A DNA stretch of 64,000 nt from Sulfitobacter maritimus (lineage in GTDB: Bacteria > Pseudomonadota > Alphaproteobacteria > Rhodobacterales > Rhodobacteraceae): positions 1-64,000 of the forward strand of contig NZ_JABVBB010000020.1 of NCBI RefSeq assembly GCF_013346665.1, written 5' to 3'. Below the pieces are notes generated by a model. That model did no database searches. It saw only the letters and a list, made by a program, of their open reading frames with translations, and was not told where the DNA came from. Of the stretch, positions 6,075-48,052 are shown piece by piece. Each line of letters starts with the position of its first letter. The first letter of the stretch is position 1. Position numbers and translations under genes: made by a program.

Positions 6075-6105
6075 GATATGTCCCCTCTGTTTTTGTTCAT
6101 GTTCT

Positions 6106-7039: not shown

Positions 7040-7092
7040 GCTTTCGCGCGAGCTCCCTTTGAACGATCCACTGGAGGGCCTTCCTCTTTCTT

Positions 7093-7338
7093 CAGGAAAT
7101 ATCTGACGAACTCGGCTATCTCCCCTTCGCACAGACCGGCGGCCAGCTGCTGTTCCACCTCGCCAGTCGCCTTTACGGGCGTACGTCCATCATCGTAACG
7201 ACTAACCTCGACTTCGGTGAGTGGCCATTGGTCTTCGGAGACGCCAAGATGACGACAGCGCTACTCGATCACCTTACCCACCAATGCGACATCTTCAAAA
7301 CTGGCAACGAAAGTGGGCACTTCAAGTGCCGCGAATGA
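7093..7338 (+). pseudogene. IS21-family IstB ATPase, C-terminal fragment
   Basis: An open stretch encodes [18 protein letters not shown], then [38 protein letters not shown] and FKTGNES, ending at TGA 7336-7338. This is the recognisable tail of IstB from the Walker B motif (usually [11 protein letters not shown]) to near the end. The N-terminal two thirds, including Walker A, and any istA are missing. It is a dead remnant immediately downstream of the deoR-type gene. Confidence 0.8.
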
Positions 7339-20864: not shown

Positions 20865-20962
20865 CACTGTCGCGTTTGCCCAAGATGCCACCGATGGAAT
20901 GCCTAAACTCAGGCAGAGGAGGCGTCTCGGCGTGATGCCGGAACGTGATAGCGGAGGACATC

Positions 20963-22381
20963 ATGAAAGATACAATCGATAGCATTGGCCTGATTGTCGA
21001 CGGGCAAAGGATTAGCACAGACGCGCGGTACGCAGTGGCCAATCCTGGCACCGGTGGCCAGGCAGGAACCGCCCCCGATGCCGGTAAAGCAGAATTGGAT
21101 CGCGCGGTCGCCGCAGCCAAGGCGGCTTTTCCAAGCTGGTCTGCGAAGTCGGACGAAGAGCGTGCGGCAGTGTGCAACGCCGTTGCAGATAAGATCGAAG
21201 CCCATGCCGAGGAACTTGCGCAACTGATCACCGCCGAACAAGGAAAACCCTTGGGCGGCATTGGGTCGCGATGGGAGTTGGGTGGCGCCGTCGCTTGGGC
21301 GCGTTATACGGCGGGGCTGTCTCTTCCGATAGAGGTGCTGCAGGATACGCCCGAAGGCCGGGTCGAGATGTACCGCAAACCTTTGGGGGTTGTCGGATCG
21401 ATCACCCCGTGGAACTTTCCAGTGTTGATCGCCGTGTGGCACATCCTACCCGCACTGCGCAGCGGCAACACGGTAGTGAGCAAACCCTCCCCAATGACGC
21501 CGCTCGCGTCCCTGCGCATGGTTGAGATCATGAACGAAGTCTTGCCCGCAGGCGTGGTGAATTCAGTAAGCGCTGCCGATGGCGCGTTCAACATGGGCGC
21601 GGCCATGTCAGCGCATGAGGATATTGCAAAGATCGTCTTCACCGGGTCCTGCGGGACGGGTCAAAAGGTCATGCAATCCAGCGCCGAGACGATGAAACGC
21701 CTGACCCTAGAGATGGGCGGAAATGATGCCGGCATTGTGCTGCCTGATGCCGATCCGCAAGGGATTGCCGAGAACCTGTTCTGGGGCGCGTTCATCAACA
21801 ACGGACAGACCTGCGCTGCAATGAAGCGGCTCTATGTTCATGATGACATCCACGACGCGGTTTGTAGCGCGCTGGTCGCCTATGCGCGCAACATTAAAGC
21901 CGGCGAGGGCACGCAAGAAGGTAGCATGCTCGGCCCCGTTCAAAACCAGATGCAGTTCGATAAGCTTTCGCGTTTGGTTGACCAAGCTAAAGACCATGGA
22001 CAAGTGCTGCTCGGTGGCGCGCCGGGTGAAGGGTTGTTCTATCCGCCCACAATCATCGCGGGCATGAGCGCAGATGACCCTTTGGTCTATGAAGAACAAT
22101 TCGGCCCCGCACTGCCGATCATCCGCTACACTGATCTGGAAGACGCGCTCGCACAGGCCAATGCGCTGGACGTGGGTCTCGGCGGCTCCGTCTGGTCGGC
22201 GGACAAAGAGGCCGCCAAGGAGGTGGCGAAACGGATGGAGTGTGGCTCGGTCTGGATCAACAGCCACGGTATGATCCAGCCCAATGCGCCATTTGGAGGG
22301 GTGAAAAAATCCGGCTTTGGCGTCGAATTCGGCGAAGAGGGATTGAAAGAATACACCGATATTCAGGTGATTTTCGCCTGA
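20963..22381 (+). CDS. Aldehyde dehydrogenase (aryl-acetaldehyde type, FeaB role)
   Basis: This 472-residue NAD(P)-dependent aldehyde dehydrogenase has general base E250 (LEMGGND), nucleophile C284 (GQTCAA), the cofactor loop FTGSCGTGQ and PWNFP. The ATG at 20963 follows GGAGGA; an upstream ATG lacks support. It would oxidise the aldehyde formed by the amine oxidase encoded 73 bases downstream to the acid, as FeaB does with phenylacetaldehyde. In sequence style it is closer to broad aldehyde/succinate-semialdehyde dehydrogenases, so substrate assignment rests on context. Confidence 0.88.
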   Translation: MKDTIDSIGLIVDGQRISTDARYAVANPGTGGQAGTAPDAGKAELDRAVAAAKAAFPSWSAKSDEERAAVCNAVADKIEAHAEELAQLITAEQGKPLGGIGSRWELGGAVAWARYTAGLSLPIEVLQDTPEGRVEMYRKPLGVVGSITPWNFPVLIAVWHILPALRSGNTVVSKPSPMTPLASLRMVEIMNEVLPAGVVNSVSAADGAFNMGAAMSAHEDIAKIVFTGSCGTGQKVMQSSAETMKRLTLEMGGNDAGIVLPDADPQGIAENLFWGAFINNGQTCAAMKRLYVHDDIHDAVCSALVAYARNIKAGEGTQEGSMLGPVQNQMQFDKLSRLVDQAKDHGQVLLGGAPGEGLFYPPTIIAGMSADDPLVYEEQFGPALPIIRYTDLEDALAQANALDVGLGGSVWSADKEAAKEVAKRMECGSVWINSHGMIQPNAPFGGVKKSGFGVEFGEEGLKEYTDIQVIFA

Positions 22382-22454
22382 GGCTGGGAGGCAACGGTGG
22401 TCATCCGGTGTCCGCTGCGGCGGGCACCTTCATAGCAACATGAAGGGAGACAGC

Positions 22455-24437
22455 ATGTTACGTAAAACTTTACTAGGCGGGGTCGCGGCTCTTGCCCTTA
22501 CCACCGCGGGGGCATCCGCCCATCCGCTCGACGGGTTTTCCGGGGAGGAATACCAAAAGATCAACGAGATCCTGCGCACCGCAGATCTCGCCACAGATGA
22601 GACGCTCTATCCGCTAATCGAGTTGATCGAACCGCCCAAAGCTGACGTGTTGGCATGGCAGGAAGGTGACACGCTCGACCGCCGCGCCATGGTGCACATG
22701 TCCAACGCTGACAACAGTGGCTTTGTCGAAACCATCGTGAACCTCACCACCGGTGAGATCGAAAGCAGTGCGCCCACCGAAGGGCAGCCAATGATCCTGT
22801 TCACCGAGTTCGCCAACGCGATGACAGCAGCGCTTGAACATCCCGACATGATCGCAGGGTTGGAGAAACGCGGCCTGACCCCGGATCAGGTGTTCTGCCT
22901 GCCACTCACCGCGGGCAACTTCTTCACCGAAGAAGACGAGGGCACCCGGTTGATGAAAGTGCCCTGCTACGTCTCGCCCGAAGGGTCGAACTTCTACGCC
23001 AAACCGATTGAGAACATCTATGCTGTGGTCGATCTGCAAAGCGGCAAGGCGCTGCGGGTGATTGACGAGGGCAATGTCGCCATCCCCGAAGATGGCTGGG
23101 GCTACACCGGCGAAGAGATCGAGGCCCGCGCACCGCAACGCGCTGCGATGAACCCCGCTGTGCTGACACAGGAAGGCGGGCCCAATTTCACCTACGCCGA
23201 CGGTGCGCTCAAATGGGACATGTGGCGCATGCGTCTGCGGGTGGACAAACGCCCCGGGCCGGTGCTGTCGAACATTGATGTGAAGGACGGCGACGAATGG
23301 CGCTCCCTGCTCTATCAGGCGCATCTGTCCGAGGTTTTCGTCCCCTATATGGACCCAAGTGCTGGTCTCTACTGGCGCACCTATATGGACAGTGGTGAAT
23401 ACGGCTTTGGCTTGTTCCTGACGCCGCTGGTAGCGGGGATCGACTGCCCCTCCTATGCGACTTTCCTCCCGGCGATGATCGCGGGCGACGATGGTCAGCC
23501 GTTGGAAATCCCCGATGCGGTCTGCATCTTTGAACGTAACATCGGCGATCCAGCGTGGCGACACTTTGAGGTCTTTGCGCAAAGTCCCGATCAATACACC
23601 CCCGCAGAGGGGCGGCCCGAGACTGAGTTGGTCGTGCGCACGGCGTCAGAGGTTGGCAACTACGACTATTTGATCGACTACCGGTTCAAGCAGAACGGCC
23701 AGATGGAGATAAAGATCGGTGCGACTGGCCTTGATGGGGTAAAGGGAGCCGATGCCACCTCGATGGACGATCCCACCGCCGAACGAGAAACCGAATACGG
23801 CACGCTCATCGCTCCGAACCTCGTGGCGGCGAACCATGACCACTACTTCAACTTCCGGCTCGATTTCGACATCGACCAGCCTACCAACCGCTTCATGACG
23901 ATGGACATCGTGCCAGCCGACGTGGCCGAAGACAGCCCGCGCCGGTCGCTGTGGAAGGTGGAACATAACATGCCGGAAACTGAAGCCGAGGCGACCTATC
24001 AGGTGTCTTCGTTCAAACCGCGCTACTTCATGTTGCAAAACCCCGACCGCAAAGGTCCGCTGGGGCATAAGCCGGGCTACATGATCCATCACGGCAGCGT
24101 GGCTTACGGCCCGTTCGACTTTGAGAATGACCCGCCGATGATGCGCAACGCCTATATCGAGAACTCGGTCTGGAACACAGTGCACGACCCCGATGAGCGT
24201 TACGCGGGCGGGAAATTTGCCCTGCAAAGCGACGGCTCCGACACGCTGGCGCAATGGGTCAAGGAAGACGCGCCGTTGCAGGATCAGGACATCGTGACGT
24301 GGTTCACCGCAGGGTTCCACCACGTGCCGCGCACCGAAGACTGGCCGGTCATGTCGACCGAATGGAAGACCGTGCATATCATGCCGCACAACTTCTTCCC
24401 GATGAACCCGGCGATCACGATCCGTGATCCTGAATAA
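22455..24437 (+). CDS. tynA: Periplasmic copper amine oxidase (primary-amine oxidase)
   Basis: This 660-residue topaquinone enzyme has a signal peptide (about residues 1-23, ending ASA). Visible sites are the TPQ precursor tyrosine Y403 in GNYDY, the catalytic base D312 in YMDSGEYG, and copper ligands H461, H463 (NHDHYF) and H623 (FHHVPR). It oxidises primary amines to aldehydes with release of ammonia and H2O2 in the periplasm. The ATG at 22455 after GGGAGA is preferred to one 15 bases upstream. With the upstream FeaR-like and aldehyde dehydrogenase genes it forms an aryl-amine (phenylethylamine/tyramine-like) utilisation set. Confidence 0.94.
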   Translation: MLRKTLLGGVAALALTTAGASAHPLDGFSGEEYQKINEILRTADLATDETLYPLIELIEPPKADVLAWQEGDTLDRRAMVHMSNADNSGFVETIVNLTTGEIESSAPTEGQPMILFTEFANAMTAALEHPDMIAGLEKRGLTPDQVFCLPLTAGNFFTEEDEGTRLMKVPCYVSPEGSNFYAKPIENIYAVVDLQSGKALRVIDEGNVAIPEDGWGYTGEEIEARAPQRAAMNPAVLTQEGGPNFTYADGALKWDMWRMRLRVDKRPGPVLSNIDVKDGDEWRSLLYQAHLSEVFVPYMDPSAGLYWRTYMDSGEYGFGLFLTPLVAGIDCPSYATFLPAMIAGDDGQPLEIPDAVCIFERNIGDPAWRHFEVFAQSPDQYTPAEGRPETELVVRTASEVGNYDYLIDYRFKQNGQMEIKIGATGLDGVKGADATSMDDPTAERETEYGTLIAPNLVAANHDHYFNFRLDFDIDQPTNRFMTMDIVPADVAEDSPRRSLWKVEHNMPETEAEATYQVSSFKPRYFMLQNPDRKGPLGHKPGYMIHHGSVAYGPFDFENDPPMMRNAYIENSVWNTVHDPDERYAGGKFALQSDGSDTLAQWVKEDAPLQDQDIVTWFTAGFHHVPRTEDWPVMSTEWKTVHIMPHNFFPMNPAITIRDPE

Positions 24438-24593: not shown

Positions 24594-26936
24594 TTAAAGC
24601 GCAAGTTTGAGCCGCGCACCGTTTTTGGCGCGTGAACAACAGGTCATCATGCGTTTGCCGCCTGCCCGTTCAGCCCGCGTGAGCACCATGTCTCGGTGGT
24701 CAACCTCTCCTTCGATAACCGTCACTTCGCAAGACCCACACAGACCCTCACGACAATCACAAGCGACATCAATGCCCGCTGCCCTAATTGCGTCTAATAG
24801 AGTGGTATCGGCTGCCACATTCAGCACCAAACCCGAGTCGCTTAACTCCACCTCAAAAGGCTGTTCCTTTTCGGGATCGAGCCCTGCCACGCTGGAAGAG
24901 AAGTGTTCAAAGTGGAATGTCCCCTCAGGCAAATCCTTCGTCAGCACCTCCAACGTGTTTAACAGCCCCTTTGGTCCACAAGCATAGATTTGCGCGCCTT
25001 CCCCAAGATTGGCCACCAAGGCGGGCAGGTCCATCCGCTGGCTTTCATCGCCCGCGTAGAGCGATAGAACTGCGCCGTGATCTTGGGCGACACGATTCAG
25101 AAACGCCATCGTGGATTTTGACCGCCCCCCATAGTGCAGTTCATAGCTGCCCCCTAAATCTTTCAACCGATCAGCCATGGCGAGAATAGGCGTGATACCG
25201 ATGCCACCCGCAATCAACACCACATGCGGTGCGGATTCATCGAGCCGGAACAGGTTCGACGGCCCGCGCATACGGATTTCGGCACCGGCCTGAAGAGTTT
25301 CATGGATGTAGCGCGACCCGCCACGTCCCAGATCTTCACGCCGAATTGCGACACGATAGCTATTGTCGTCGGGTGAACCGCAAAGTGAATATTTACGGTC
25401 GTACTCACCCACGCAGAGCTCAATGTGGGATCCGGCACTCCATTTCGGCAAGGGGCGGCCCTGCGGGTCTTCGATGGTCACGCCAAGGATACCCTCGGCT
25501 TCTTGGTGCAGCTCGGCAATACGCACTTTACGAGCAACGTCGCGGCGGGCGGGGGGGCCCACGGCAAAACAACGGCGCGGGGTCTTTACCTTTGCATCGG
25601 CCCGCTCCGGGTTTTGTGTAGGGTCCCATTCGACCCACAAAGAGTCAGGCCCACGAAAGGAGATATTGGGTAACTGATCAAAGTCTTGCTCTGCCAAACG
25701 CAGATGCGGCAGGCGACGGGTCACCTCTTCGAGGAAGATCCGCATTTCCATCCGACCAATGTTCTTGCCCATACATTGATGCGCACCATAGCCAAATGTG
25801 AGATGATCGATCGCATTGTCGCGGTAGATATCGAACGTATCGCCGTCTTCGAAATGCCTTTCGTCCTGATTGCCTGAGGCTTGGACGATCAGAAGCTTCG
25901 CACCTTCTGGCAGGTCGACACCGTTCAATCTCGTGGGCGCAGTGGTTTGGCGGCGCCAAGCGACAATTGACCCGGCATAGCGCAGGCATTCCTCAACCGC
26001 ATTCGGGATCAGTGACGGATCCTCGCAGATGTCGTTCCACGCTTCGCGATGTTCCAGCAGGGTCCTAAACATATTGGCCGACGCCAGCGAGGTCGTCTCA
26101 TGAGCGGCGACGATGATCGCCATCATCATCGAATGTACGTAGTTGTCGGTGACGATCTCTGGCTTCTCGGCGTTCATACGGATGGTGTGGTGCATCCAGC
26201 CGGCGCCGTCAGGCTCGGCGCGCATTTTCTCTATGATCTCGCCAGCATATTTCCAGAAGCGCCCTACATCATGAGCAACCTCAATTTGCTTTTGGTCTGA
26301 TGGTTTGCCCCAAGTGTTGACGGAATGGGCGACCGAAAAAGTCTTGATAGTGGCGATTTCATCCTCAGGCACACCAAGGAAATGGAGCGCAACGAGCAGC
26401 GGGACTTCGTATAGCATTTCATCGATCAGATCGACCCGCCCACTGTCGATAAAAGCATCAATCTTTTCACGGGTTAGACGGCGGACCATATCCTGCTGTG
26501 CTTCCAGCTTGTCAGGCATGAAATGATCCAGCAGCGTACGCCGCCGTTCCATATGGGCAGGTTCGTCCTCATTCACCATGGTGCGGCCCATGCCATAACC
26601 ATAGGTTTTGAGGATTTCCTGTGCCTCGGCGGTGGCCGGCGTGATCCTTTCCAGCGCATTGCGCGGCGAGAACAGGATGGCGTCGCGGAACACCGTCTTG
26701 ATGTCATCGTAACGTGTTACGACCCAATAGCCCAACTTTGGCGCATAGAAAACGGGAAGCTGGTCACGCGACCAGCGCAATGCTTCCGCCGAGTTCAGTT
26801 GGTATGAGCTTCCGAAGGCGTCAAAGCTTCGCGCCATGGCAGCCGGATCGCGGGTCGGGCAAGTTTGCTCCTGCTCATCAGGGGCTACGCCGCCGAAGGG
26901 GCATTCGTGCGCAGTATCCTTGATTTGGCCTGCCAT
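24594..26936 (-). CDS. Self-sufficient cytochrome P450 fused to FMN/2Fe2S reductase (CYP116B-type)
   Basis: This 780-residue single chain has three parts. The P450 domain (to about residue 445) has heme-ligand C388 in FGYGAHQCMG, ExxR in EECLRYAG, and an I-helix stretch AAHETTSLA. A phthalate-dioxygenase-reductase-like flavin/NAD domain follows (RKYSLCGS, LIAGGIGITPI, YACGPKGLL), then a plant-type [2Fe-2S] ferredoxin (CDCREGLCGSCEV, final Cys in MMTCCSRA). This is the order of P450RhF-like CYP116B enzymes. It hydroxylates or demethylates small organic compounds using NAD(P)H without partner proteins. The ATG follows GAGGGGG. The I-helix has HETT in place of the more usual GxDT. The substrate is unknown. 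Confidence 0.93.
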   Translation of the reverse strand: MAGQIKDTAHECPFGGVAPDEQEQTCPTRDPAAMARSFDAFGSSYQLNSAEALRWSRDQLPVFYAPKLGYWVVTRYDDIKTVFRDAILFSPRNALERITPATAEAQEILKTYGYGMGRTMVNEDEPAHMERRRTLLDHFMPDKLEAQQDMVRRLTREKIDAFIDSGRVDLIDEMLYEVPLLVALHFLGVPEDEIATIKTFSVAHSVNTWGKPSDQKQIEVAHDVGRFWKYAGEIIEKMRAEPDGAGWMHHTIRMNAEKPEIVTDNYVHSMMMAIIVAAHETTSLASANMFRTLLEHREAWNDICEDPSLIPNAVEECLRYAGSIVAWRRQTTAPTRLNGVDLPEGAKLLIVQASGNQDERHFEDGDTFDIYRDNAIDHLTFGYGAHQCMGKNIGRMEMRIFLEEVTRRLPHLRLAEQDFDQLPNISFRGPDSLWVEWDPTQNPERADAKVKTPRRCFAVGPPARRDVARKVRIAELHQEAEGILGVTIEDPQGRPLPKWSAGSHIELCVGEYDRKYSLCGSPDDNSYRVAIRREDLGRGGSRYIHETLQAGAEIRMRGPSNLFRLDESAPHVVLIAGGIGITPILAMADRLKDLGGSYELHYGGRSKSTMAFLNRVAQDHGAVLSLYAGDESQRMDLPALVANLGEGAQIYACGPKGLLNTLEVLTKDLPEGTFHFEHFSSSVAGLDPEKEQPFEVELSDSGLVLNVAADTTLLDAIRAAGIDVACDCREGLCGSCEVTVIEGEVDHRDMVLTRAERAGGKRMMTCCSRAKNGARLKLAL

Positions 26937-29931: not shown

Positions 29932-31226
29932 GTGTTCTTAATCGTCTGACTGACGACACCGCCAAAAAGGCTCCCGTGCGAATGTCTGTGCGGCGGGTGA
30001 GTTTGCTTGGAGCGCTTTTCATCGCGACCGGGCCAATCGCCATGGCACTCTATACCCCCGCAATGGCCGAGATCGTGTCGGCCTACGGCACCACAAGCAG
30101 TTTGGTCAAAATGACCTTAACGCTCTATTTCGGAGGCTTTGCCACGGCACAGCTTATTGCGGGGCCGCTGTCGGACGCATTGGGTCGCCGGCCTGTGATT
30201 ATCGGCTTCATGATGATCTTCGTTGCCGCCAGCTTGCTTGCCCTTGCGGCTCCTACGATTGAGACCCTCATCGTTGCGCGATTTGTGCAGGGCATTGGCG
30301 CTAGCGCAGGTGTGGCGATCTCGCGGGCCTTGGTGCGAGACCTGTTCGAGGGCGACGAGTCTTCTCGTATTATGAACCTGATGGGGATCATTCTGGCCGT
30401 CGCGCCCGCCTTGGCACCTACTTTGGGTGGTGTCCTGGTGACCCACGCAGGATGGCAATCCGTGTTTGTGGCGATGATGTCCTTCGGTATTGCGGTGATT
30501 GCGGCCACTGTTTGGGGTCTGCGTGAAACTGTCGTTCCCGACCGCAGTCGGCTCAACCTGCGCCAGCTTGCCCAATCCTATGTGACACTTATGACAAACC
30601 GGCATTTTATGGCGACGTCGCTTACCATCGCCGGAGCGATCGGGGCGATCTATGCATTGGCGACGATCCTTCCCTTTATCCTCATGCAAGTCCTTGGTTT
30701 TACTCCAACCGAATTCGGGCTTGGGATGCTGATGCAATCGGGCAGCTTTTTCGCCGGTTCCTTGGTTGTTCGCCAGCTTATGAAACACCACAGCGCCTAT
30801 CGACTGGTTGTCCCCGGTCTTGGGGTGATCCTTTTTGGCAGCGCGTTGATCCTGACATTGCTGGTGGGTCCGCCGAGTTTTTTAAGGGTCATGGTGCCGG
30901 TTGCCTTTTACACCTTCGGGATTGCATTCGTAATGCCAGCCATGTCCACCGCCGCATTGGCGCCTTTCCCAAAGATCGCCGGCGCTGCGTCTTCATTGAT
31001 GGGCTTTTTGCAGATGGGCGCGGGGCTATTGATCGGCTCTTTGGCCGCCCTTTTCGACGATCCGGTGGTCGCTTTGGCGGTGCTGATCCCGACGATGGGT
31101 ACGGTGGCAAGCCTGTCCTATGTTGTGTACCGTATGAACCCGCATCTGGCGGAGCCTGAGCCGCGAAAAGAAGTCATCAGCGGCCCTCCGGCAGGGCGGA
31201 CATGGATGCCGTCGAAAAAGGGATAG
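29928..31226 (+). CDS. MFS multidrug efflux protein (Bcr/CflA family)
   Basis: This 432-residue transporter has about 12 transmembrane helices, the MFS signature between helices 2 and 3 (GPLSDALGRRPVIIGF), and the Bcr/CflA stretch RALVRDLFEGDESSRIMNLMG. It exports drugs or small molecules using the proton gradient. The ATG at 29928 overlaps the marR-type stop. The 254 bases downstream to the next gene show nothing notable. Confidence 0.88.
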   Translation: MSVLNRLTDDTAKKAPVRMSVRRVSLLGALFIATGPIAMALYTPAMAEIVSAYGTTSSLVKMTLTLYFGGFATAQLIAGPLSDALGRRPVIIGFMMIFVAASLLALAAPTIETLIVARFVQGIGASAGVAISRALVRDLFEGDESSRIMNLMGIILAVAPALAPTLGGVLVTHAGWQSVFVAMMSFGIAVIAATVWGLRETVVPDRSRLNLRQLAQSYVTLMTNRHFMATSLTIAGAIGAIYALATILPFILMQVLGFTPTEFGLGMLMQSGSFFAGSLVVRQLMKHHSAYRLVVPGLGVILFGSALILTLLVGPPSFLRVMVPVAFYTFGIAFVMPAMSTAALAPFPKIAGAASSLMGFLQMGAGLLIGSLAALFDDPVVALAVLIPTMGTVASLSYVVYRMNPHLAEPEPRKEVISGPPAGRTWMPSKKG

Positions 31227-31480
31227 CGCGCTCGGACGAGAGGAGTTGCGATGGGGCTGTCTAGGTCGCTTTAAGTAGCGTAGCTGCCGCAGGCACTTGC
31301 GGCTTTCACGGCGTCTGCCAAGCCCCCCTCCCCCGGCGCCACACGGCTCATAATAGAAATATCTTGGAACCCATCTCACTGGCGTACGGTTAACCCATCA
31401 TAGTGCTCTTTTTCGTCAGCACTCTTGCGGCCACGCGCGGATAGAGCCGCAGATCGAACTTCGGTACCTAGGGGGCTTCC

Positions 31481-33052
31481 ATGAGTGAAATCACACGTCG
31501 CAATCTCTTGGCTATGATCGGCACTGCTGCGGGCAGTACGGCCATGTATCATGCCATGGCATCAATGGGTTTCGCTGCCCCGTCGGACTATAGCGGTCCG
31601 ATTAAGTTGGACGGCGATCCGCAGGGCGCAAAGGTGTTGATCCTTGGCGCCGGTCTTGCCGGACTGACCGCTGCTTACGAAATGCGCGCAGCTGGCTATG
31701 AAGTAGAAGTGTTGGAGTTCCGCGAAAAGGCGGGCGGGCGATGCTGGACCCTGCGTTCGGGCGATAGCTACACAGAACTCGGCGGCGCAACGCAGAACGT
31801 CGATTTTGCGGAAGGCAACTACATCAACCCCGGCCCATGGCGGCTTCCACACAACCACCATGCTGTTCTGGATTATTGCAAGCGGCTCAAAGTGCCGCTG
31901 GAGCCGTTTATCCAGTTGAACTACAACTCCTACCTTCACAAGTCGGATGCCTATGGCGGCAAGCCACAGCGTTTGAAGGACATCAAGACCGACTACCGCG
32001 GCCATATTTCGGAATTGCTCGCCAAAGCCGTGAACCAAGGCAAACTGGACGAGCTGGTCACTGCAGAGGATCGCGAAGTCCTGCTAGAAAGCCTGCGTTC
32101 CTTCGGGGTGCTGAATGAGCAAAACGAATACGCCAAAAGCTTAGAGACCAGCCACTACCGCGGCTACGCCAAACAGCCCGGCGGCGGTGTCGGCGCGGCA
32201 CCTGAGGCATCAGACCTGCTGAACCCGCAGGAAGTTTTGCAATCACGCCTGTGGGAATATCTTGCCACGCATGAGACTGTCGACCACCAAGCCCCCATGT
32301 TCCAGCCCGTCGGTGGGATGGACGGTATCGCCAAAGGGTTTGAGCGCGAGGTCGGAGATCTCATTACCTATAACGCCAAGGTCGTGTCACTTCAGCAAGA
32401 CGAGAATGGCGTGACGGTAACATGGGAAGACAGCGCCGGTGGCGGTCAAAAGACGAGCAAGGCGGACTACTGCGTTTGCACCATCCCCTTCTCCATCCTC
32501 GGTCAGATCGACCATAATCTTTCGGGCGGTTTGGCGAATGCGATCAGTTCCATGTACTACAATGGATCGACCAAATGGGGCCTCGAATTTAAGCGCCGCT
32601 TCTGGGAGGAAGACGAGGATATCTATGGCGGGATCAGCTATACCGATCTGGCCATCGGGCAGATCAGCTACCCCTCGACGGGTTACTTCTCAGACGGGCC
32701 AGGGGTACTTCTGGGCGGTTACACATGGCGGGGTGAAAACTCTTACAAGTTCAACGCGATGGAGCCTGATGAGCGGCTGGAATGGGCGCTGCGCCAAGGC
32801 GCCAAGATCCACCCCCAATACCGCGACGAGTTCAAAACCGGCGTGAGTGTTGTCTGGCACAAGGTGCCGTGGGTGCTGGGCTGCGCCGGCGTCTGGGAAA
32901 ACCGCGACGATTACGACGAAGCGATCAAGATCGACAATCGCGTGGTGTGTGCGGGCGAGCATCTTTCCTATCTGCCAGCTTGGCAGGAAGGGGCGATCCT
33001 CTCCTCCCTCGATGCGATTTCGCGTCTCCATGACAAAGTAATCAACGGGTGA
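31481..33052 (+). CDS. Exported FAD amine oxidase/dehydrogenase (flavin monoamine oxidase family)
   Basis: This 523-residue protein has a twin-arginine-like N-terminus (TRRNLLAMIG, RR at 6-7, then a hydrophobic stretch). The FAD-binding motif is G56-A-G58-L-A-G61, with GGRCWT nearby and a C-terminal FAD contact region (VCAGEHLSYLPAWQEGAI). The fold is that of amine and L-amino acid oxidases, which make an imine and pass electrons to O2 or, as with the NicA2 nicotine enzyme, to a cytochrome c. The next gene, 4 bases downstream, encodes an exported cytochrome c. This one may therefore be a dehydrogenase in the periplasm. The amine substrate is unknown. Confidence 0.88.
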   Translation: MSEITRRNLLAMIGTAAGSTAMYHAMASMGFAAPSDYSGPIKLDGDPQGAKVLILGAGLAGLTAAYEMRAAGYEVEVLEFREKAGGRCWTLRSGDSYTELGGATQNVDFAEGNYINPGPWRLPHNHHAVLDYCKRLKVPLEPFIQLNYNSYLHKSDAYGGKPQRLKDIKTDYRGHISELLAKAVNQGKLDELVTAEDREVLLESLRSFGVLNEQNEYAKSLETSHYRGYAKQPGGGVGAAPEASDLLNPQEVLQSRLWEYLATHETVDHQAPMFQPVGGMDGIAKGFEREVGDLITYNAKVVSLQQDENGVTVTWEDSAGGGQKTSKADYCVCTIPFSILGQIDHNLSGGLANAISSMYYNGSTKWGLEFKRRFWEEDEDIYGGISYTDLAIGQISYPSTGYFSDGPGVLLGGYTWRGENSYKFNAMEPDERLEWALRQGAKIHPQYRDEFKTGVSVVWHKVPWVLGCAGVWENRDDYDEAIKIDNRVVCAGEHLSYLPAWQEGAILSSLDAISRLHDKVING

Positions 33053-33056
33053 AGCC

Positions 33057-33581
33057 ATGCAACAGACTTTTATCACAGCCGCGATCGTAGGTATGCTCGG
33101 CACGTTGCCGCTCTATGCCCAAGACGATGAAGTAGACACGCGCACCGCGCAAGAAACTGAAACGGGTGAGACCTCATCCGAGGTCGATGCGCGGCCTCAA
33201 GAACGCGAGATCACCGCCAAGGCAGATGGGGGTGAATGGGTCGAGGAATATGTCAGCGAGGATGGCGAGGAATTGTATCAATCGCTCTGCTCTGGCTGTC
33301 ATATGGCCGATGGGTCAGGCGCAGTTGGGGCCGGGAAGTACCCTGCGCTCAGCGGGAACCCGAACCTCGAATTCGCCGGTTACGCGACCTACATCATCAT
33401 CAACGGTCAAGCTGCCATGCCCAGCTTCGGCCATTTTCTTGATGACAAGCAGGTGCTCGCCATTACCGACTATCTGCAAACCAACCTAGGCAATGACTAT
33501 GAGCCCGATGGCACGCTTGATGCCGTGGCCGATGCCCGTCCTGCCGAACCAGTAGATCAGAATACGGAGGAACACGAATGA
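33057..33581 (+). CDS. Exported class I cytochrome c
   Basis: This 174-residue protein has a signal peptide (about residues 1-21) and a long acidic, probably disordered stretch (22-60). A single cytochrome c domain follows, with heme site C78-S-G-C81-H82 and axial M121 in AAMPSF, and then an acidic tail. It would take electrons from the FAD enzyme encoded just upstream and pass them to the respiratory chain. It starts 4 bases after that gene and overlaps the RidA gene by 4 bases. Confidence 0.9.
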   Translation: MQQTFITAAIVGMLGTLPLYAQDDEVDTRTAQETETGETSSEVDARPQEREITAKADGGEWVEEYVSEDGEELYQSLCSGCHMADGSGAVGAGKYPALSGNPNLEFAGYATYIIINGQAAMPSFGHFLDDKQVLAITDYLQTNLGNDYEPDGTLDAVADARPAEPVDQNTEEHE

Positions 33582-34084
33582 TCCGCAAATTTATCGCCCC
33601 CCTCGCCGCGGCCACCGCACTGACGGCCACCGCAGCATTCGCACAAAGCTCGGAAGTTGTTCGCCATGGATTGCCGGATTCCGACTTTCCGATCCTGCAA
33701 GCGGTAGAGGTGCCAGCGGATGCCACTTTGGTTTATCTCAGCGGCACCGTGCCGGAGGTCGCTGATGAAACGGCAGAGAAAGGCTCGCCGGAATATTTCG
33801 GGGATACGGCCACCCAGACTGCTAGCGTTCTGGCGTCGATTGAGAAAAAGCTCGCCGGGATTGACCTTGATATGGGGGATGTCATCAAAATGCAGGCCTA
33901 TCTCGTCGCTCCCGAAGGCAGCGATGGGATGGACTTTGAAGGCTTTATGAAAGGCTATACTCAATACTTCGGCACCGAGGAGCAACCTGAATTGCCAACC
34001 CGGTCGGTCTTTGCGGTTGCGGGATTGGCGAACCCGGCTTGGCTGGTTGAGATCGAAGTTGTGGCGGTCCGCTCCGGCTCATAA
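33578..34084 (+). CDS. Exported RidA/YjgF-family protein (imine deaminase)
   Basis: This 168-residue protein has a clear signal peptide (about residues 1-22, ending AFA), which is unusual for RidA. The Rid fold follows, with VYLSGTVPE, the conserved catalytic arginine R142 (LPTRSVFAV) and the VEIEVVAV end strand. RidA proteins hydrolyse reactive enamines and imines to keto compounds plus ammonia. As the third gene of the amine oxidase/cytochrome c unit (ATGA overlap), it probably clears the imine product in the periplasm. Confidence 0.88.
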   Translation: MIRKFIAPLAAATALTATAAFAQSSEVVRHGLPDSDFPILQAVEVPADATLVYLSGTVPEVADETAEKGSPEYFGDTATQTASVLASIEKKLAGIDLDMGDVIKMQAYLVAPEGSDGMDFEGFMKGYTQYFGTEEQPELPTRSVFAVAGLANPAWLVEIEVVAVRSGS

Positions 34085-34115
34085 GCTCGCGCAGCAGGCG
34101 ATCACCTGAATTTCG

Positions 34116-34145
34116 AAGCGGTGGCCCCTTCGGGCCACCGCTTTT
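34116..34145 (+). terminator. Rho-independent terminator between RidA and binding-protein genes
   Basis: GCGGTGGCCC pairs with GGGCCACCGC around a CTTC loop and is followed by TTTT. It serves the plus-strand cassette. The reverse strand has a short run of T only partly, so termination of the converging minus-strand gene is less sure. Confidence 0.85.
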
Positions 34146-34149
34146 GCGT

Positions 34150-35865
34150 TTAACCGTCGGTGCGATACCAATCGGCAACGTTCCACAGGTCACTGTCCCA
34201 AGCGTTCAGCTTTACGCCACCAAGCGTGTTGCCCTGTGCCGCCACCGCTGCGCGGTTGATCAGCGGCAACATGGATTTGCTTTCAGTCGTGATGATGTCG
34301 TTCAGACGTTTGACCAGACGCGCCCGCTCTTCGATCTTGCTGGTACGAGAGAGCTCATCCAGCAGAGAGTCGTATTCCTCGTTGCAAAAGCGGTTGATAT
34401 TCTCGCCCTGCCACTGGGTCGATGGCTTAGGCTCATTCCCGCAACGGCGCTGCGCGAGATAGGCTTGCGGGTCGGTGCCGTCGTAGAGGTTCGCATACAT
34501 CTCCACATCGGCATAGAACTTCGGGAATGTGTCGGGGCTGCCGGGATCGCCGCCGAAGAAGACCGAGGCATCGATGTTGCGCAACTCGACCTCAATGCCG
34601 ATCTGGTTCCACCAATCCTTGATCAGCGCCTGAAAGTCCTGACGCACGGCATTCGTGGAGGTCTGGAACAAGATCGACAGACGCATACCGTCTTTCTCGC
34701 GCACGCCGTCTCCGTCTTTGTCCTGCCAGCCCGCTTCATCCAAAAGCGCCTTCGCAGCTTCCAAATCCTGCGTCATGCATTCGGTATTGTCAGAGCTATA
34801 GATTGGCGGCGCGGGGACCAGATTGCAGGTTGGCCGACCCGCCTGCCCATAGCCGATTTCGTTCAGCAGTTCGCGGTCAATCGCCATGCTCATGGCCTGA
34901 CGAACGCGGCGATCGGTGAGGAAAGGATGCGGCTCTTCAACCGTCGCGCGGGTTTCGGGCGGCAGGTCCGGGGAGGGGTTCGTCATATTGATTTCGATCC
35001 GCTCCACCAACGGTCCGAACTCGAAGATAGGCTTGCCGGTGCCACCTTCGGCGATTTTCTCCAGCACGTCGGGCGCCATCAGCAGATCCCAAGCGTAGTC
35101 AAACTCGCCCGTCTCCATCACCGCCCGCGCAGCTGAGACGGAATCCCCGCCGCCTTTGAAGTTGAGCTTAGCAAAGGCAGGCTTGCTCGGATCGCGGTAG
35201 TTGTCATTCGCCACAAGCTGGATCGAGTCGTTGGGGCGGAAGTCTGTCACTACGAAGGGGCCGCTGCCAATCGGGTTGAAGTTCTCCTCCGTGCAACCCG
35301 GCGCGCGCGCGCCTGTGCATTCCGCGAACTGGGCCGCCTGCAGGATGGGCGAGGCCGCGCCCACGAATGGTAGATAGGGGTACGGTTTCGGCTCGTCGAA
35401 ATGGATCGTCACGGTGCGATCATCAATGACTTCGATTTCTTTCACGTCATTGAACTTTGACAGTTGTGCGCAACCGCCTTCGGGGTTCATGCAATAATCT
35501 GCCGTGAATTTCACATCCTTGGCGGTAAGCGGCGTGCCGTCGGACCAAGTCACCCCTTCCTTCAGTTTCCAAGTGATGGTCTTGAGGTCTTCGGTCATGC
35601 CGCCGTTTTCGACCGTGGGAATTTCGACCGCCAGTTTCGGGACCAGCTCGCCTTTCTCATCGGCGTTGGCCAAAGGCTCCAACACCATGCTGGAGGCATC
35701 ACGCTCTTTCACGCCGCCCGAAAGATAGGGGTTAAGGATCGAGGGGGCCTGCCAGTAGATGATATTGAGTTGCTCATCGCGACCACGCTCGCCCTCCTGC
35801 GCGATGGCCATCGTTGACAGCAAGGTCAGGGAGGTGGCTCCGAGTAAATGGGCTGATAATCGCAT
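34150..35865 (-). CDS. Peptide/nickel-type ABC binding protein (SBP_bac_5)
   Basis: This 571-residue protein has a signal peptide (about residues 1-22, ending AIA) and SBP_bac_5 features: LNIIYWQAPSILNPYLS, ITWKLKEGVTWSDGTPLTAKDVKFT in shortened form, and VRQAMSMAIDRE. The ATG at 35865 follows GGAAG. It binds peptides, opines or similar compounds in the periplasm. No permease or ATPase genes accompany it, so it is an orphan here. Its convergent position next to the exported amine oxidase cassette may be incidental. Confidence 0.88.
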   Translation of the reverse strand: MRLSAHLLGATSLTLLSTMAIAQEGERGRDEQLNIIYWQAPSILNPYLSGGVKERDASSMVLEPLANADEKGELVPKLAVEIPTVENGGMTEDLKTITWKLKEGVTWSDGTPLTAKDVKFTADYCMNPEGGCAQLSKFNDVKEIEVIDDRTVTIHFDEPKPYPYLPFVGAASPILQAAQFAECTGARAPGCTEENFNPIGSGPFVVTDFRPNDSIQLVANDNYRDPSKPAFAKLNFKGGGDSVSAARAVMETGEFDYAWDLLMAPDVLEKIAEGGTGKPIFEFGPLVERIEINMTNPSPDLPPETRATVEEPHPFLTDRRVRQAMSMAIDRELLNEIGYGQAGRPTCNLVPAPPIYSSDNTECMTQDLEAAKALLDEAGWQDKDGDGVREKDGMRLSILFQTSTNAVRQDFQALIKDWWNQIGIEVELRNIDASVFFGGDPGSPDTFPKFYADVEMYANLYDGTDPQAYLAQRRCGNEPKPSTQWQGENINRFCNEEYDSLLDELSRTSKIEERARLVKRLNDIITTESKSMLPLINRAAVAAQGNTLGGVKLNAWDSDLWNVADWYRTDG

Positions 35866-36042
35866 GATGTGCTTCCAATCTTGATAGAATGTCTGACGCA
35901 AATAATTGCTTAACTAGTCAAACATAATAAAATTAGAATGCAATGGCTGCGCGGGCGAAACGGGCCAGAATGAGCGCGCGCCGCTTTGGACATTTCGCCG
36001 CAGCGTCGCTTCACTCTATGGTGGCTAGCTTTCGCCTGTTAG

Positions 36043-41363: not shown

Positions 41364-42134
41364 CTACCCCGGCACCCGGTTTTCAAACCGGCGAAACATC
41401 AGCGCGATGATCCCGGCGATGATCATGTAAAACACCGCCAGCAGGATCAGCGGTTCGTACACAATAAAGGTATCCGACCGCACCCGCGAGGAAACCGCAT
41501 AGAGTTCAACCACGGTGATCGTCGCGACCAGAGGTGTCGCCTTGAGCTGCAAAATAGTTTCACCGCCCAATGTTGGCAGCACATTGCGAATGGCTTGGGG
41601 CAGCCAAATACGGCGGAACATGGTGAAGCGCGGCATGCCAAATGCGTTTGCGGCTTCAAGCTGCCCTTTGTTCACGCTGGAGAACGCGCCGCGCATGACT
41701 TCGCCTTCATAACCCGCATAGGACAACGTCAGGGCCAACACCGCATAGGGCCAAGCTTGGCGCAGGTAGGGCCAGAGTTCACTGCCGCGAATCCACGGGA
41801 TTTGCGGGAAGAGCGAACCGAGGCCGTAGTAGAGCAGCCAGATTTGCAACAGGAGTGGTGTGCCGCGAATGACGGTACAGAATACCCCCGCGGGCGCGGA
41901 GAGATACCAAGGCCCGATAGCCTGCGCGAGGCCGAGGGGGATGGCCAGAAGAAACCCCAGCACGCAAGTGACCACCAAGATCCAGATCGTGCGCCAGAGA
42001 CCCTCAAGCGCCAACGGGGCGTATTCCGGTATCCAATCCCACCGCAGCGCCACGGCGCACCAGATCACCACGGCCAGCAGGACTGCCATCATGACGATAC
42101 GGTGCGGCTGCATCAGAGCGCGAATAGAAATCAT
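41364..42134 (-). CDS. Polar amino acid ABC permease (HisM-type)
   Basis: This 256-residue inner-membrane protein has about five helices and the His/Glu/Gln/Arg/opine permease signature (GQLEAANAFGMPRFTMFRRIWLPQAI in shortened form as the EAA loop). The ATG at 42134 overlaps the stop of the upstream permease (ATGA); the longer open frame to 42176 is unlikely. It pairs with the other permease as a heterodimer for basic amino acid uptake. Confidence 0.9.
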   Translation of the reverse strand: MISIRALMQPHRIVMMAVLLAVVIWCAVALRWDWIPEYAPLALEGLWRTIWILVVTCVLGFLLAIPLGLAQAIGPWYLSAPAGVFCTVIRGTPLLLQIWLLYYGLGSLFPQIPWIRGSELWPYLRQAWPYAVLALTLSYAGYEGEVMRGAFSSVNKGQLEAANAFGMPRFTMFRRIWLPQAIRNVLPTLGGETILQLKATPLVATITVVELYAVSSRVRSDTFIVYEPLILLAVFYMIIAGIIALMFRRFENRVPG

Positions 42135-42883
42135 CGGCCCGCTCCTTTCAGCGACGGCTGGCCGCGCCGCGCCCATTTTTCAATCCGGGCAAAGACTGCA
42201 CCCGAACAGAGCGTCACAATCAGATAAAGAGCACCCGCGGCGAGGAAGAAGGTGAAATAGGCGCGGGTGCTGGCAGCGGCCTGTCGTGTCTCAAGGGTCA
42301 GCTCGCTAAAGCCGACGATGGCCAGCAGGGCGGTATCCTTGGTCGCAATCAGCCAAAGGTTCGCAAGACCGGGCGTGGCAAACGACATCATCGCGGGGAT
42401 GGTAACCCGGCGCATCAGCATAAATGGCGGCATGCCGTAGGCCCGTGCGGCTTCGATCTGACCGGGCGGAACAGCCTGAATCGCGCCACGCAGCACTTCG
42501 GTGGCATAGGCGCCCTGCACGACCCCAAGCACCCAGATCCCGGCGACCACACCGCTGATCTCGACACGGCCATAGCCCATGGCCTCTGAAATTTTGTTAA
42601 TAAGATCGGTGCCGACGTAATAGAGGATCAGGATCAACACCAGCTCCGGCACCGCCCGGATCACAGTCGTATAGACAGCGAGGAGGTCGCGTAGGACCAC
42701 CCCGCCATAAAGCTTGCCGTAGGCTCCAAAAAGCCCGATCAGCAGACCGAACCCGAAAGCACCAAAGGCGATCTGCAATGAGTTTGCGAGCCCACGCAGA
42801 AGGTTGCCTCCCCAGCCCGGCGGGCTGAGGGACAATAGTTTCGCACTTTCGGTCAGACCGAGCGTTTCGAAGAAGAACTCCAC
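42131..42883 (-). CDS. Polar amino acid ABC permease (HisQ-type)
   Basis: This 250-residue inner-membrane protein has the family signature: TVIRAVPELVLILILYY, then GAIQAVPPGQIEAARAYGMPP with the EAA coupling loop. It is the second permease of the importer, 9 bases after the binding-protein stop and overlapping the next permease. Confidence 0.9.
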   Translation of the reverse strand: MEFFFETLGLTESAKLLSLSPPGWGGNLLRGLANSLQIAFGAFGFGLLIGLFGAYGKLYGGVVLRDLLAVYTTVIRAVPELVLILILYYVGTDLINKISEAMGYGRVEISGVVAGIWVLGVVQGAYATEVLRGAIQAVPPGQIEAARAYGMPPFMLMRRVTIPAMMSFATPGLANLWLIATKDTALLAIVGFSELTLETRQAAASTRAYFTFFLAAGALYLIVTLCSGAVFARIEKWARRGQPSLKGAGR

Positions 42884-42892
42884 GATGCCGGC

Positions 42893-43666
42893 TTACTCAG
42901 CGTAGATGCTGGTATCGAAATAGCGCCCGGTGATCTCTTCATGGGTGCCATCTTCGAGGATCTTGGCGATGCCCTTGTTCAGTTTTTCGCGCAACGCATC
43001 ATCGCCCTTACGCACCCCCGCGCCGACACCTTTGCCTAAGATGGCCTCGTCATTCTTGACTGCCCCTTTGATTTCGCAGCAGGCGCCAATGTCCGAGTTA
43101 ACGAAATCCGCCATGGCGATGCTGTCGGCCTGAGTGGCGTCGATCCGGCCCGAGACCAGATCCTGATTGGCTTCGTCCTGCGTCTGATAGACCCGGATCT
43201 CTGCCGCATCGCCGAAATATTCGTTGGCATAGGCTTGGTGAATTGTTGAGGCTTGAATACCGACGATCTTGCCAGCGAGGGACTCGGGCGTCGGCTCAAT
43301 ATCCATCGACTTATCCGCCACAATCACTGCAGGCGTGTTGTAGTAGGGATCGCTGAAATCAATCGTCTGCTGACGCTCTTCGGTGATCGACATGGAGGCC
43401 ATGATCGCATCGACCTGCTGGCCAGTCAGCGACGGGATGATGCCGTCCCAAGCGACAGGCGTGATCACGCAGTCCAATTCCGCCGCGGCGCACACCGCGT
43501 CGATAACCTCGATTTCCCAACCTTCCCACTCGCCAGCAGCGTTAAGCGAGGCAAAGGGGGGATATGGCTCTGCGGCGATGCCGATTTTGACCTCTTCGGC
43601 GGCCACGGCACCTGCGCTCACGATTGCAGTCGCGATTGCGGTTGTCATAAGTTTTTTGAGTGTCAT
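42893..43666 (-). CDS. Basic amino acid ABC binding protein (Lys/Arg/Orn type)
   Basis: This 257-residue protein has a signal peptide (about residues 1-22, ending AVA) and the SBP_bac_3 fold: KIGIAAEPYPPFASLNAAGEWEGWEIEVIDAVC in shortened form, MASMSITEERQQTIDFSDPYY. The family binds arginine, ornithine, lysine, histidine or octopine. The divergent aminotransferase, decarboxylase and dimethylargininase genes suggest arginine and/or methylarginines as ligands. Confidence 0.9.
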   Translation of the reverse strand: MTLKKLMTTAIATAIVSAGAVAAEEVKIGIAAEPYPPFASLNAAGEWEGWEIEVIDAVCAAAELDCVITPVAWDGIIPSLTGQQVDAIMASMSITEERQQTIDFSDPYYNTPAVIVADKSMDIEPTPESLAGKIVGIQASTIHQAYANEYFGDAAEIRVYQTQDEANQDLVSGRIDATQADSIAMADFVNSDIGACCEIKGAVKNDEAILGKGVGAGVRKGDDALREKLNKGIAKILEDGTHEEITGRYFDTSIYAE

Positions 43667-43696
43667 CAGTAGTCTCCCTGTCTTGTTTTTGGTGGT

Positions 43697-44530
43697 TTAA
43701 CCGACTGTCTGCAAAAACTGCTGAAGCCGGGCGGATTGAGGGTTGCCGAAAAGCTGTTCCGGCGGTCCCTGTTCTTCAATGCGGCCCTCGAAAAGATAGA
43801 CGACATGGGTCGCGACCTCGCGGGCGAATTTCATCTCATGGGTCACGAGCAGCATGGTGCGCCCTTCGGCGGCCAGATCGCGGATTACCGTGAGCACCTC
43901 ACCCACCAACTCGGGGTCGAGCGCACTGGTGGGTTCGTCAAACAGCATCACACTGGGTTCCACCGCAAGGGCGCGGGCGATGGCCGCGCGTTGCTGCTGA
44001 CCGCCGGAGAGAAACGCCGGGAACGTATCAGCCTTGTCGCCCAGCCCGACCCGCTCAAGCAGCACCCGCGCGCGTTTGATCGCTTCATCCCGTGGCACCT
44101 TAAGCACATAGACCGGCACCTCAATGACGTTTTCCAACAACGTGCGGTGGGTCCAGAGGTTGAAGGCCTGAAACACCATGCCAAGGCGAGTCCGGATACG
44201 TTCGATCTGTCGGCAGTCGACGGGCGAGCCGTCTTGACGCATCAGAATTTCTTCGCCGTTGACGATGATCTGACCTGTGCTTGGGGTTTCCAGAAAATTG
44301 ATACACCGCAAGAAGGTCGACTTTCCCGAGCCGCTGCCGCCAATAATCGCAACAACGTCGCCTTTCTGCGCAGTGAGAGAGACCCCCTTCAGGACCTCCA
44401 GCGCGCCAAAGGATTTATGCAGGTCAGTAACCCTTATGGCCTCATTTTCCGCTGCGTTATCAGCGTTGGCATCTCTGGCCGCTTCCGTTGCTCCCATCGG
44501 CTTCTTCTTCAACGCGTCCGCGCCTCCCAT
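43697..44530 (-). CDS. Polar amino acid ABC ATPase (HisP/GlnQ-type)
   Basis: This 277-residue ATPase has Walker A GGSGSGKST, signature LSGGQQQRAAIARAL, Walker B VMLFDEPTSALD and the switch His in LVTHEMKFA. An unusual 45-residue Ala/Asp-rich N-terminal extension precedes the domain; the start at 44530 (after GGGGAA) or an internal ATG are both possible. It energises the importer and is the first gene of the operon, divergent from the tetR-type gene. Confidence 0.88.
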   Translation of the reverse strand: MGGADALKKKPMGATEAARDANADNAAENEAIRVTDLHKSFGALEVLKGVSLTAQKGDVVAIIGGSGSGKSTFLRCINFLETPSTGQIIVNGEEILMRQDGSPVDCRQIERIRTRLGMVFQAFNLWTHRTLLENVIEVPVYVLKVPRDEAIKRARVLLERVGLGDKADTFPAFLSGGQQQRAAIARALAVEPSVMLFDEPTSALDPELVGEVLTVIRDLAAEGRTMLLVTHEMKFAREVATHVVYLFEGRIEEQGPPEQLFGNPQSARLQQFLQTVG

Positions 44531-44583
44531 TTGGTGTTCCCCAAAATTGTGACTTGTAGTAAGGCCCGTATTTCGCAATCATG

Positions 44584-44598
44584 CAAGTGTATAATTAC
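44584..44598. promoter_or_regulatory. Operator/promoter motif CAAGTGTATAATTAC, copy 1
   Basis: It lies between the ABC ATPase start (44530) and the TetR start (44617) and contains a perfect TATAAT. It differs at one of 15 bases from 49012-49026, which lies upstream of the acyl-CoA module. The second half of the dyad seen at the other copy is degenerate here. Confidence 0.6.
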
Positions 44599-44616
44599 GA
44601 GGTTTGAAAATCGCCT

Positions 44617-45264
44617 GTGTCGGACAACACTCCCAAATTTAAGCGTGAGCCAGCGGAGCACCGCAGGGAGGCGCTGATCAATGCCACCCTGTCGCTGATC
44701 GCCGAAAAGGGCGTTCAGGCTGCGACGGTCCGGGCCATTGCCGCACGCGCGGATGTGTCACAAGGCATGATCCGACATCACTTCTCGTCCAAGGAAGAGC
44801 TGATAACGGCGGCCTATGAACATCACATGGACCGGTTGACCGATCTGACATCGGCATCTGCGGATGCCGACAGTGGCGCAGCCGCGGCACAGCTCGCGGC
44901 TTTCGTTGTGGCCAGCCTCACGCCACCGGTTGTCGACGCCGGGTCGGTCAGCCTCTGGGCCGGGTTCCTCACCAAGGTGCACGATGACCAGCAGATGCGC
45001 GATAGTCACGAGCGCACTTATTACAACTTCCGCAACCGCCTTGAGGCACTGATTGCCGCCGTGTTGGAAGAAGCCGGCCAGCCCGCCACACCGCAGCAGC
45101 TGCGGTATTTGGCAATCGCCTGCAACGCCGTGATCGATGGGCTGTGGCTGGAAGGCGGTATTCTCTCAGGGGCATTCGCACCGGATGAGCTTCCGGAAAT
45201 CGGGATCAGATCGGTCGGCGCAATTCTCGGAATGGACCTAACAAAGGCAGGGCAACAGACATGA
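44617..45264 (+). CDS. TetR-family regulator (BetI-like C-terminal domain)
   Basis: This 215-residue protein has a TetR HTH (GVQAATVRAIAARADVSQGMIRHHFSSKEELI in shortened form) and a BetI-like ligand domain (WAGFLTKVHDDQQMR, IDGLWLEGG). The start is GTG at 44617. It is the first gene of the plus-strand catabolic operon and overlaps the aminotransferase by 4 bases. It probably controls both divergent units and, through the shared motif, the acyl-CoA module as well. Confidence 0.88.
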   Translation: MSDNTPKFKREPAEHRREALINATLSLIAEKGVQAATVRAIAARADVSQGMIRHHFSSKEELITAAYEHHMDRLTDLTSASADADSGAAAAQLAAFVVASLTPPVVDAGSVSLWAGFLTKVHDDQQMRDSHERTYYNFRNRLEALIAAVLEEAGQPATPQQLRYLAIACNAVIDGLWLEGGILSGAFAPDELPEIGIRSVGAILGMDLTKAGQQT

Positions 45265-48037: not shown

Positions 48038-48052
48038 ACAAGAGAGCATGAC

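Follow-up and report, generated by a model that had tools for sequence, protein, structure and literature searches.

A three-gene operon of Sulfitobacter maritimus predicted to encode an L-amino acid dehydrogenase linked to cytochrome c, with an exported Rid as partner

The stretch of Sulfitobacter maritimus DNA analysed here (the window, positions 1 to 64,000 of contig NZ_JABVBB010000020.1, assembly GCF_013346665.1) contains at 31481-34084, on the forward strand, a compact operon coding for a Tat-type flavoenzyme of the L-amino acid oxidase/dehydrogenase (LAAO) family, a class I cytochrome c and a Rid3-type imine deaminase predicted to be exported. We consider this operon, with a probability of roughly three in four, a periplasmic, respiration-linked L-amino acid deamination unit in which a cytochrome c-linked dehydrogenase acts together with an exported imine hydrolase. 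What was observed directly is the order of the genes, their families, the export signals, the conserved residues, the association of the genes throughout a large clade and the fusion, in three other genomes, of the counterparts of two of them. The idea of flavoenzymes that use cytochrome c would in this way be extended from nicotine-type amines to an apparently large clade of L-amino acid enzymes, and the case is tied to a published auxin-forming cluster, with the label moving from amine to L-amino acid.

The LAAO gene (31481-33052, + strand, 523 residues) stops four bases before the cytochrome gene (33057-33581, + strand, 174 residues), and the start of the Rid gene (33578-34084, + strand, 168 residues) overlaps the end of the cytochrome gene by four bases. 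An earlier note, made from the sequence alone, had proposed these three genes, and the positions of the open reading frames (ORFs) bear out its coordinates, gene order, spacing and overlap. Its descriptions of the three products hold equally well. The Tat-type FAD enzyme has the motif TRRNLL near its N-terminus, GAGLAG at residues 56-61 and a match to PF01593 (1.3e-56). The class I cytochrome is mono-haem, with a single CSGCH whose first Cys is residue 78, and passes the cut-offs of PF13442 (1.5e-13) and PF00034 (5.7e-09). The Rid protein passes the cut-off of PF01042 (1.2e-15), has a flagged signal peptide at about residues 1-22 (it starts MIRKFIAPLAAATALTATAAFAQ) and keeps the Rid arginine, residue 142. 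The sequence supports the placing of the unit in the periplasm by the earlier note, and its view of the Rid as dedicated and exported.

The distribution of the unit was surveyed in other genomes. A first scan of named genomes gave 29 loci. A profile made from 21 LAAO rows (E<=1e-60, three candidates per genome scored) had matches in 27/398 phylum genomes and 16/394 family genomes, the S. maritimus genome included, and 46 stretches covering all the listed profile matches outside the window were added; with the window the collection amounts to 76 loci, with 73 LAAO genes that are non-redundant and long enough to use. Taking as linked any gene on the same strand within 2.6 kb of the LAAO, 35 of these 73 rows have both a cytochrome c and a Rid, 19 the cytochrome only, seven the Rid only, three a cytochrome-Rid fusion and nine neither (two of the last, L115 and L117, carry a Rid farther out, at about 3.5 kb). 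The maximum-likelihood tree contains one clade of 56 LAAOs (support 94/84), made up of 33 with both partners, the 19 with cytochrome only, the three fusions and L027. An adjacent cytochrome c is present in 55 of the 56, the exception being L027, where the contig ends some 180 bases past the LAAO, and a Tat-like motif, by motif search only, was found in 55/56. Linked Rid genes occur in 36 members, and in 34 of these the order is LAAO-cytochrome-Rid, L036 and L101 being arranged otherwise. The 17 LAAOs outside the clade comprise seven with Rid only, eight with neither and two (L114 and L119) with a weakly matching, different cytochrome; a still weaker cytochrome match in L113 was not counted. 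The five linkage states require 18 changes on the tree versus 33.8 in shuffles. In this sample, close cytochrome linkage marks one clade, and Rid linkage is wider and more labile. Since the unit recurs in many genomes, the trio is more than a chance arrangement; the synteny search that the earlier note had proposed as a check shows the three genes conserved together.

Several variants of the layout were seen. The S. maritimus genome itself (G000) holds a second LAAO-cytochrome c pair (L100, G000:C15:5292-14857, at 3860-6709) with no linked Rid; after the pair comes a gene for a cytochrome with two CxxCH motifs, and in the tree L100 falls together with L129 and L130. L104, L108, L131 and L132 have a cytochrome c gene on each side of the LAAO and no linked Rid. 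In two metagenome-assembled genomes, one cyanobacterial (L038) and one of Solirubrobacter (L041, where the LAAO is split between frames), the LAAO adjoins a Rid with no cytochrome c.

The flavoenzyme resembles LAAOs both in sequence and in predicted fold. In a phmmer search of the PDB the top match was the Rhodococcus opacus LAAO (RoLAAO, 2jae), at 1e-87; an ancestral tetrapod LAAO and snake LAAOs followed. The AlphaFold2 model (mean pLDDT 79.7) had 2jb1 as its best fold match; both RoLAAO structures, 2jb1 and 2jae, matched with TM 0.84 and 35% identity, and snake LAAOs came next. R121, K365 and W501 are each identical in 73/73 LAAO relatives. In the phmmer alignments R121 falls on the Arg of RoLAAO (2jae) and of the LAAO ancestor, and we take it to be the residue that binds the substrate carboxylate; K365 is presumably the lysine tied to the reaction with O2 in this flavoenzyme superfamily. 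Because LAAOs are the best matches in sequence and fold and the arginine aligned with that of RoLAAO is kept in all rows, the substrate is, from sequence and model, most likely an L-amino acid, and the name of amine dehydrogenase used in the earlier note was dropped. We know of no cytochrome partner for RoLAAO. This enzyme is an oxidase with a broad substrate range (PMC4699246).

As to which amino acid is used, tryptophan has a precedent only, in Gluconacetobacter diazotrophicus (see below), because a search of the S. maritimus genome for indolepyruvate decarboxylase gave no match over the cut-off; the best one, window 46445-48037, is a 5-guanidino-2-oxopentanoate decarboxylase. A weak hint towards arginine comes from the handling of iminoarginine by Rid3 proteins and from a ketoarginine decarboxylase gene about 12 kb away. 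The ORFs neighbouring the clade LAAOs, within about 4-5 kb, included no further gene common to most loci: the largest group (13 loci) is one of reading frames, the example of which lies over the trio on the opposite strand, and the next groups are mainly Dyella genes.

The cytochrome starts with MQQTFITAAIVGMLGTLPLYAQ, which has no basic residue ahead of the hydrophobic stretch, and our signal heuristic did not flag it; the same heuristic flagged the cytochromes of most relatives. M121 is likely its axial ligand. The proposal of the earlier note that this cytochrome accepts the electrons of the flavoenzyme is supported by sequence, which makes it the likely acceptor.

For the Rid protein the nearest solved relatives are PSPTO3006 (7.8e-34) and PFL1385 (1.6e-25), both listed as Rid3 (PMC5619798), and it scores below the cut-off of TIGR00004. 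In an assay with snake LAAO, Rid3 proteins including these two were active; they also acted on iminoarginine, a substrate for which RidA and Rid1 showed no significant activity (PMC5619798). Genes for RidA, and sometimes Rid3, cluster with FAD amine oxidase genes (PMC4433059). The window protein keeps Arg142 (equivalent to RidA Arg105), Glu158 and Glu160, and the catalytic Arg is kept in 49/51 aligned rows; the exceptions are L125, truncated where its contig ends, and L041, with broken or divergent genes. Export was judged by a heuristic of our own, not SignalP, that asks for a basic residue and a hydrophobic stretch before the domain and for an AxA-like site; it replaced a looser version that allowed matches inside the domain and flagged 5/30 control Rids. 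Among the 73 rows there are 45 linked Rids, three fused to the cytochrome and 42 separate, and a signal peptide was flagged in 39 of these 42. In L021 the signal appears only if the basic-residue rule is dropped, and the Rids of L121 and L122, both from a clade without cytochrome, have none. Only one of 30 other Rid paralogs (L158) was flagged in the control, in which two genes were counted twice and one paralog of S. maritimus gave no hit. The search for Rid proteins with signal peptides, also suggested beforehand, gave in this way 39/42 among the separate linked Rids versus 1/30 among the other paralogs. Besides that of the window, all of the 12 strong Rid3 proteins examined were flagged, five of them (L140-L144) unlinked to an LAAO and three (L145, L146 and L149) already among the 45 linked Rids. 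A Rid linked to an LAAO is, by these sequence signals, nearly always predicted to be exported. L158 (G222) matches Rid only weakly and has an N-terminus resembling a signal; the LAAO-cytochrome pair of that genome lacks a linked Rid3.

Co-occurrence was also counted within the family. Rid3 (E<=1e-15) is present in 6/388 family genomes, all six carrying a cytochrome-linked LAAO, which is held by 11/394; Fisher's test gives p ~1e-10 if both draws are the same genomes. All 19 cytochrome-only genomes were searched for Rid: nine hold a strong Rid3 elsewhere (among them four of the five Dyella), in some cases, S. maritimus included, beside another LAAO; eight have weak matches only; and two have none at E<=1e-6, one of these genomes being 70% complete.

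In three genomes, Oceanicola granulosus HTCC2516 (L019), an uncultured Sulfitobacter (L020) and Sulfitobacter sp. F26169L (L026), the cytochrome and the Rid are coded by a single ORF. Each product runs from one signal-like stretch at the N-terminus through a CAGCH and an acidic linker to a Rid domain that has the Arg, and both domains pass the Pfam cut-offs in every case; the signal of L026 has no basic residue and was not flagged by the heuristic. Visual inspection of the linkers showed no second signal, which makes a sequencing slip joining two genes unlikely. The tree allows one or two origins of the fusion. A single-sequence structure model of the L019 fusion reached only pLDDT 37 and gave no usable structure. 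Because c-type cytochromes receive their haem outside the inner membrane and the two domains are fused, the Rid domain should sit in the periplasm with the cytochrome. The fusions thus argue, at the level of sequence, for Rid acting in that compartment. More tentatively, the whole clade may be a family of respiratory L-amino acid dehydrogenases with the exported Rid as a part of the machine, electron removal and imine hydrolysis being coupled, a possibility to which we give less than even odds. The fusion would then keep the imine hydrolase at the docking site at which the flavoenzyme is re-oxidised, and the control of reactive imines would be periplasmic as well as cytoplasmic. Being a compact protein of two domains, the fusion also lends itself to testing whether electron transfer and imine hydrolysis are coupled.

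The working of the window operon can be proposed as follows, with substrate class, direction of electron flow and Rid substrate being what we infer. The Tat-exported flavoenzyme would oxidise an L-amino acid by transferring a hydride from its alpha carbon to FAD, and would release the 2-imino acid. Once exported and loaded with haem in the periplasm, the mono-haem cytochrome c would accept the two electrons one at a time and pass them on to a terminal oxidase, with little or no H2O2 made. The exported Rid3 would hydrolyse the imino acid to the 2-oxo acid and ammonium before it reacts with other molecules. The unit may serve to obtain nitrogen and energy, or to provide indole-pyruvate as an auxin precursor.

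Some facts weigh against this respiratory deamination unit. K365 is present in all 73 rows and the sequence gives no sign of lost O2 reactivity, so that an O2-using oxidase is compatible with it. Reduction of the cytochrome by an LAAO of this clade is a prediction from sequence. The cytochrome c-using enzymes of PMC12224317 were found starting from NicA2, not from an LAAO, and in G. diazotrophicus the insertion reduced the transcripts of all three genes, which leaves their roles unseparated (PMC5053998). Finally, 19 of the 55 cytochrome-bearing members have no linked Rid. As a strong Rid3 is absent from 10 of these 19 genomes, the Rid is not obligatory for the LAAO-cytochrome unit, and the term self-contained in the earlier note was too strong, with 19/56 clade members having a cytochrome c without linked Rid.

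A first alternative, rather unlikely in our view, is an ordinary H2O2-producing LAAO, with a cytochrome c that only scavenges H2O2 or serves separate respiration and a Rid that clears imines. The closest solved relative being the R. opacus LAAO, the conserved lysine and the existence of sister LAAO groups without cytochrome c all fit it, and PMC5053998 calls the LAAO H2O2-releasing and mentions scavenging of H2O2 by cytochrome c. It has to account, however, for the adjacent cytochrome c in 55/56 clade members, for the second LAAO-cytochrome pair in the same genome, for the loss of auxin in ccm mutants cited in PMC5053998 and for the prediction in PMC12224317 that Tat enzymes with an adjacent cytochrome c are dehydrogenases. 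The Rid might instead be structural, a partner subunit of the enzyme or the cytochrome with no part in clearing imines, which would leave the dehydrogenase and its cytochrome as proposed. A periplasmic LAAO of Chlamydomonas is complexed with a RidA-type subunit called non-catalytic (cited in PMC5053998), and the fusions imply proximity; retention of the catalytic Arg in all aligned Rids except the two damaged or truncated cases and the deaminase activity of Rid3 proteins (PMC5619798) make such a role improbable. A NicA2-like amine dehydrogenase acting on an amine other than an amino acid was rejected as very improbable: NicA2 shares the superfamily and the Tat/cytochrome c layout (PMC12224317) and genes for a copper amine oxidase and an aldehyde dehydrogenase are found some 7-10 kb from the operon, but the PDB sequence and fold matches point to LAAOs, the LAAO-type Arg is invariant, and NicA2 is unnamed in the best 60 of 99 PDB matches and the best 50 of 1967 fold matches, some of which are called just 'amine oxidase'.

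The three-gene operon is of a kind already known. The earlier note knew of no described system with all three parts, but the cluster lao-cccA-ridA (GDI2456-2454) of the sugarcane bacterium Gluconacetobacter diazotrophicus PAL5 was published in 2016 with mutant and expression data (PMC5053998). Insertions in lao reduced indolic products by ~96%, left tryptophan unused and made indole-acetic acid undetectable; the insertion mutant had lower transcripts of lao, cccA and ridA, and earlier ccm mutants cited there made 5% of the auxin (PMC5053998). Its authors suggested that cytochrome and Rid assist the LAAO and described the cluster as conserved in Caulobacter and Xanthomonas. The same three families lie side by side there, with a Tat-signalled LAAO related to that of R. 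opacus, and the window operon matches the cluster in families, order and overlap. The peptides coded by the published RT-qPCR primers could be compared with the window proteins: for lao, YPSHGYF matches 6/7 at 397 and QVIHPNY 4/7 at 441; for ridA, KLGKID matches 4/6 at 91 and the forward primer 4/7 at 49; for cccA the agreement is poor (forward 3/7, reverse with no match at the expected place). Kinship was judged from these primer peptides, and the tryptophan/auxin role is shown in G. diazotrophicus and not here. The G. diazotrophicus lao primer sequence was found in 0/138 loci and in 0/105 genomes of one searched family (that of G363). The excerpts of PMC5053998 report a signal peptide on the LAAO and none on the Rid.

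Other systems share a part of the arrangement. NicA2/Pnao-CycN and other cytochrome c-using flavoprotein amine dehydrogenases have a Tat flavoenzyme with an operon-encoded exported cytochrome c, and flavoprotein amine oxidases with a Tat signal and an adjacent cytochrome c were shown to be dehydrogenases (PMC12224317). By the same marks the window has the Tat motif TRRNLL and the adjacent cytochrome c gene, with the signal of the cytochrome unflagged. Unlike the window enzyme, those systems were found by similarity to NicA2 and use amine substrates, and the main text of PMC12224317 mentions neither RidA nor L-amino acid. The literature on Rid3, with PSPTO_3006 and PFL_1385 as nearest solved relatives of the window Rid, differs in that export is not discussed: the word 'periplasm' is absent from the main texts of PMC5619798 and PMC4433059, 'signal' from that of PMC5619798, and 'signal peptide' and 'cytochrome' from that of PMC4433059. 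The green alga Chlamydomonas has a periplasmic LAAO with a Rid partner, and the passage on it excerpted from PMC5053998 mentions no cytochrome. Among the literature matches listed, the full trio appeared only in PMC5053998, and in the literature examined we found no description of the clade-wide cytochrome linkage, of the near-universal export of the linked Rids or of the fusions, at which no search was aimed. Four further papers were considered from excerpts and set aside: PMC12114110, on Sulfitobacter and auxin, has no bacterial LAAO cluster; PMC7688666 places Rid6 in cytoplasmic nicotine breakdown; PMC9537276 deals with the RidA-family OngD, with no role assigned there; and PMC8567248 describes a flavin monoamine oxidase with no Rid.

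The nearest operon is that of Sulfitobacter EAC16 (L013), whose positions 4680-7266 are 92.9% identical in DNA to window 31476-34062. Outside this block no L013 sequence matches the window. Compared with the whole S. maritimus genome, the left flank of L013 matched only a stretch of ~200 bases present three times (G000:C26:120564-120759, C9:38374-38569 and C8:27777-27972), part of it three times more, each copy having a partial one ~7 kb away; the right flank matched only 148 bases at 74%. As the identity is confined to the operon and the flanks are unmatched, the sequences suggest that the trio moves as a unit, with the reservation that L013 comes from a metagenome-assembled genome, where a contig error is possible.

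Downstream of the operon there is a hairpin at 34115-34144 with 13 pairs (one of them G-U) and a 3' side ending in TTTT; the RNA fold of 34105-34155 has -28.2 kcal/mol and a z of -5.53. Located between the operon and a convergent gene (34150-35901), it is a probable terminator, despite a consensus scan of 31100-34300 that found none. A sigma-70 scan near the operon gave three sites versus 1.5 expected, and no promoter call was drawn from it.

Other genes of the window deserve a brief description. The region 42131-48835 contains genes for a histidine/arginine-type ABC transporter, a BetI-like regulator, an aminotransferase, the 5-guanidino-2-oxopentanoate decarboxylase and a dimethylargininase-like protein; only the decarboxylase is over its cut-off, the others being below theirs, and the region is probably devoted to arginine or methylarginine catabolism. 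At 20945-24437 adjoining genes for an aldehyde dehydrogenase and a copper amine oxidase form a separate amine-oxidising unit. Next to it, 24594-26936 codes for a P450 of 780 residues with C-terminal reductase-like and 2Fe-2S ferredoxin domains, like the self-sufficient P450s.

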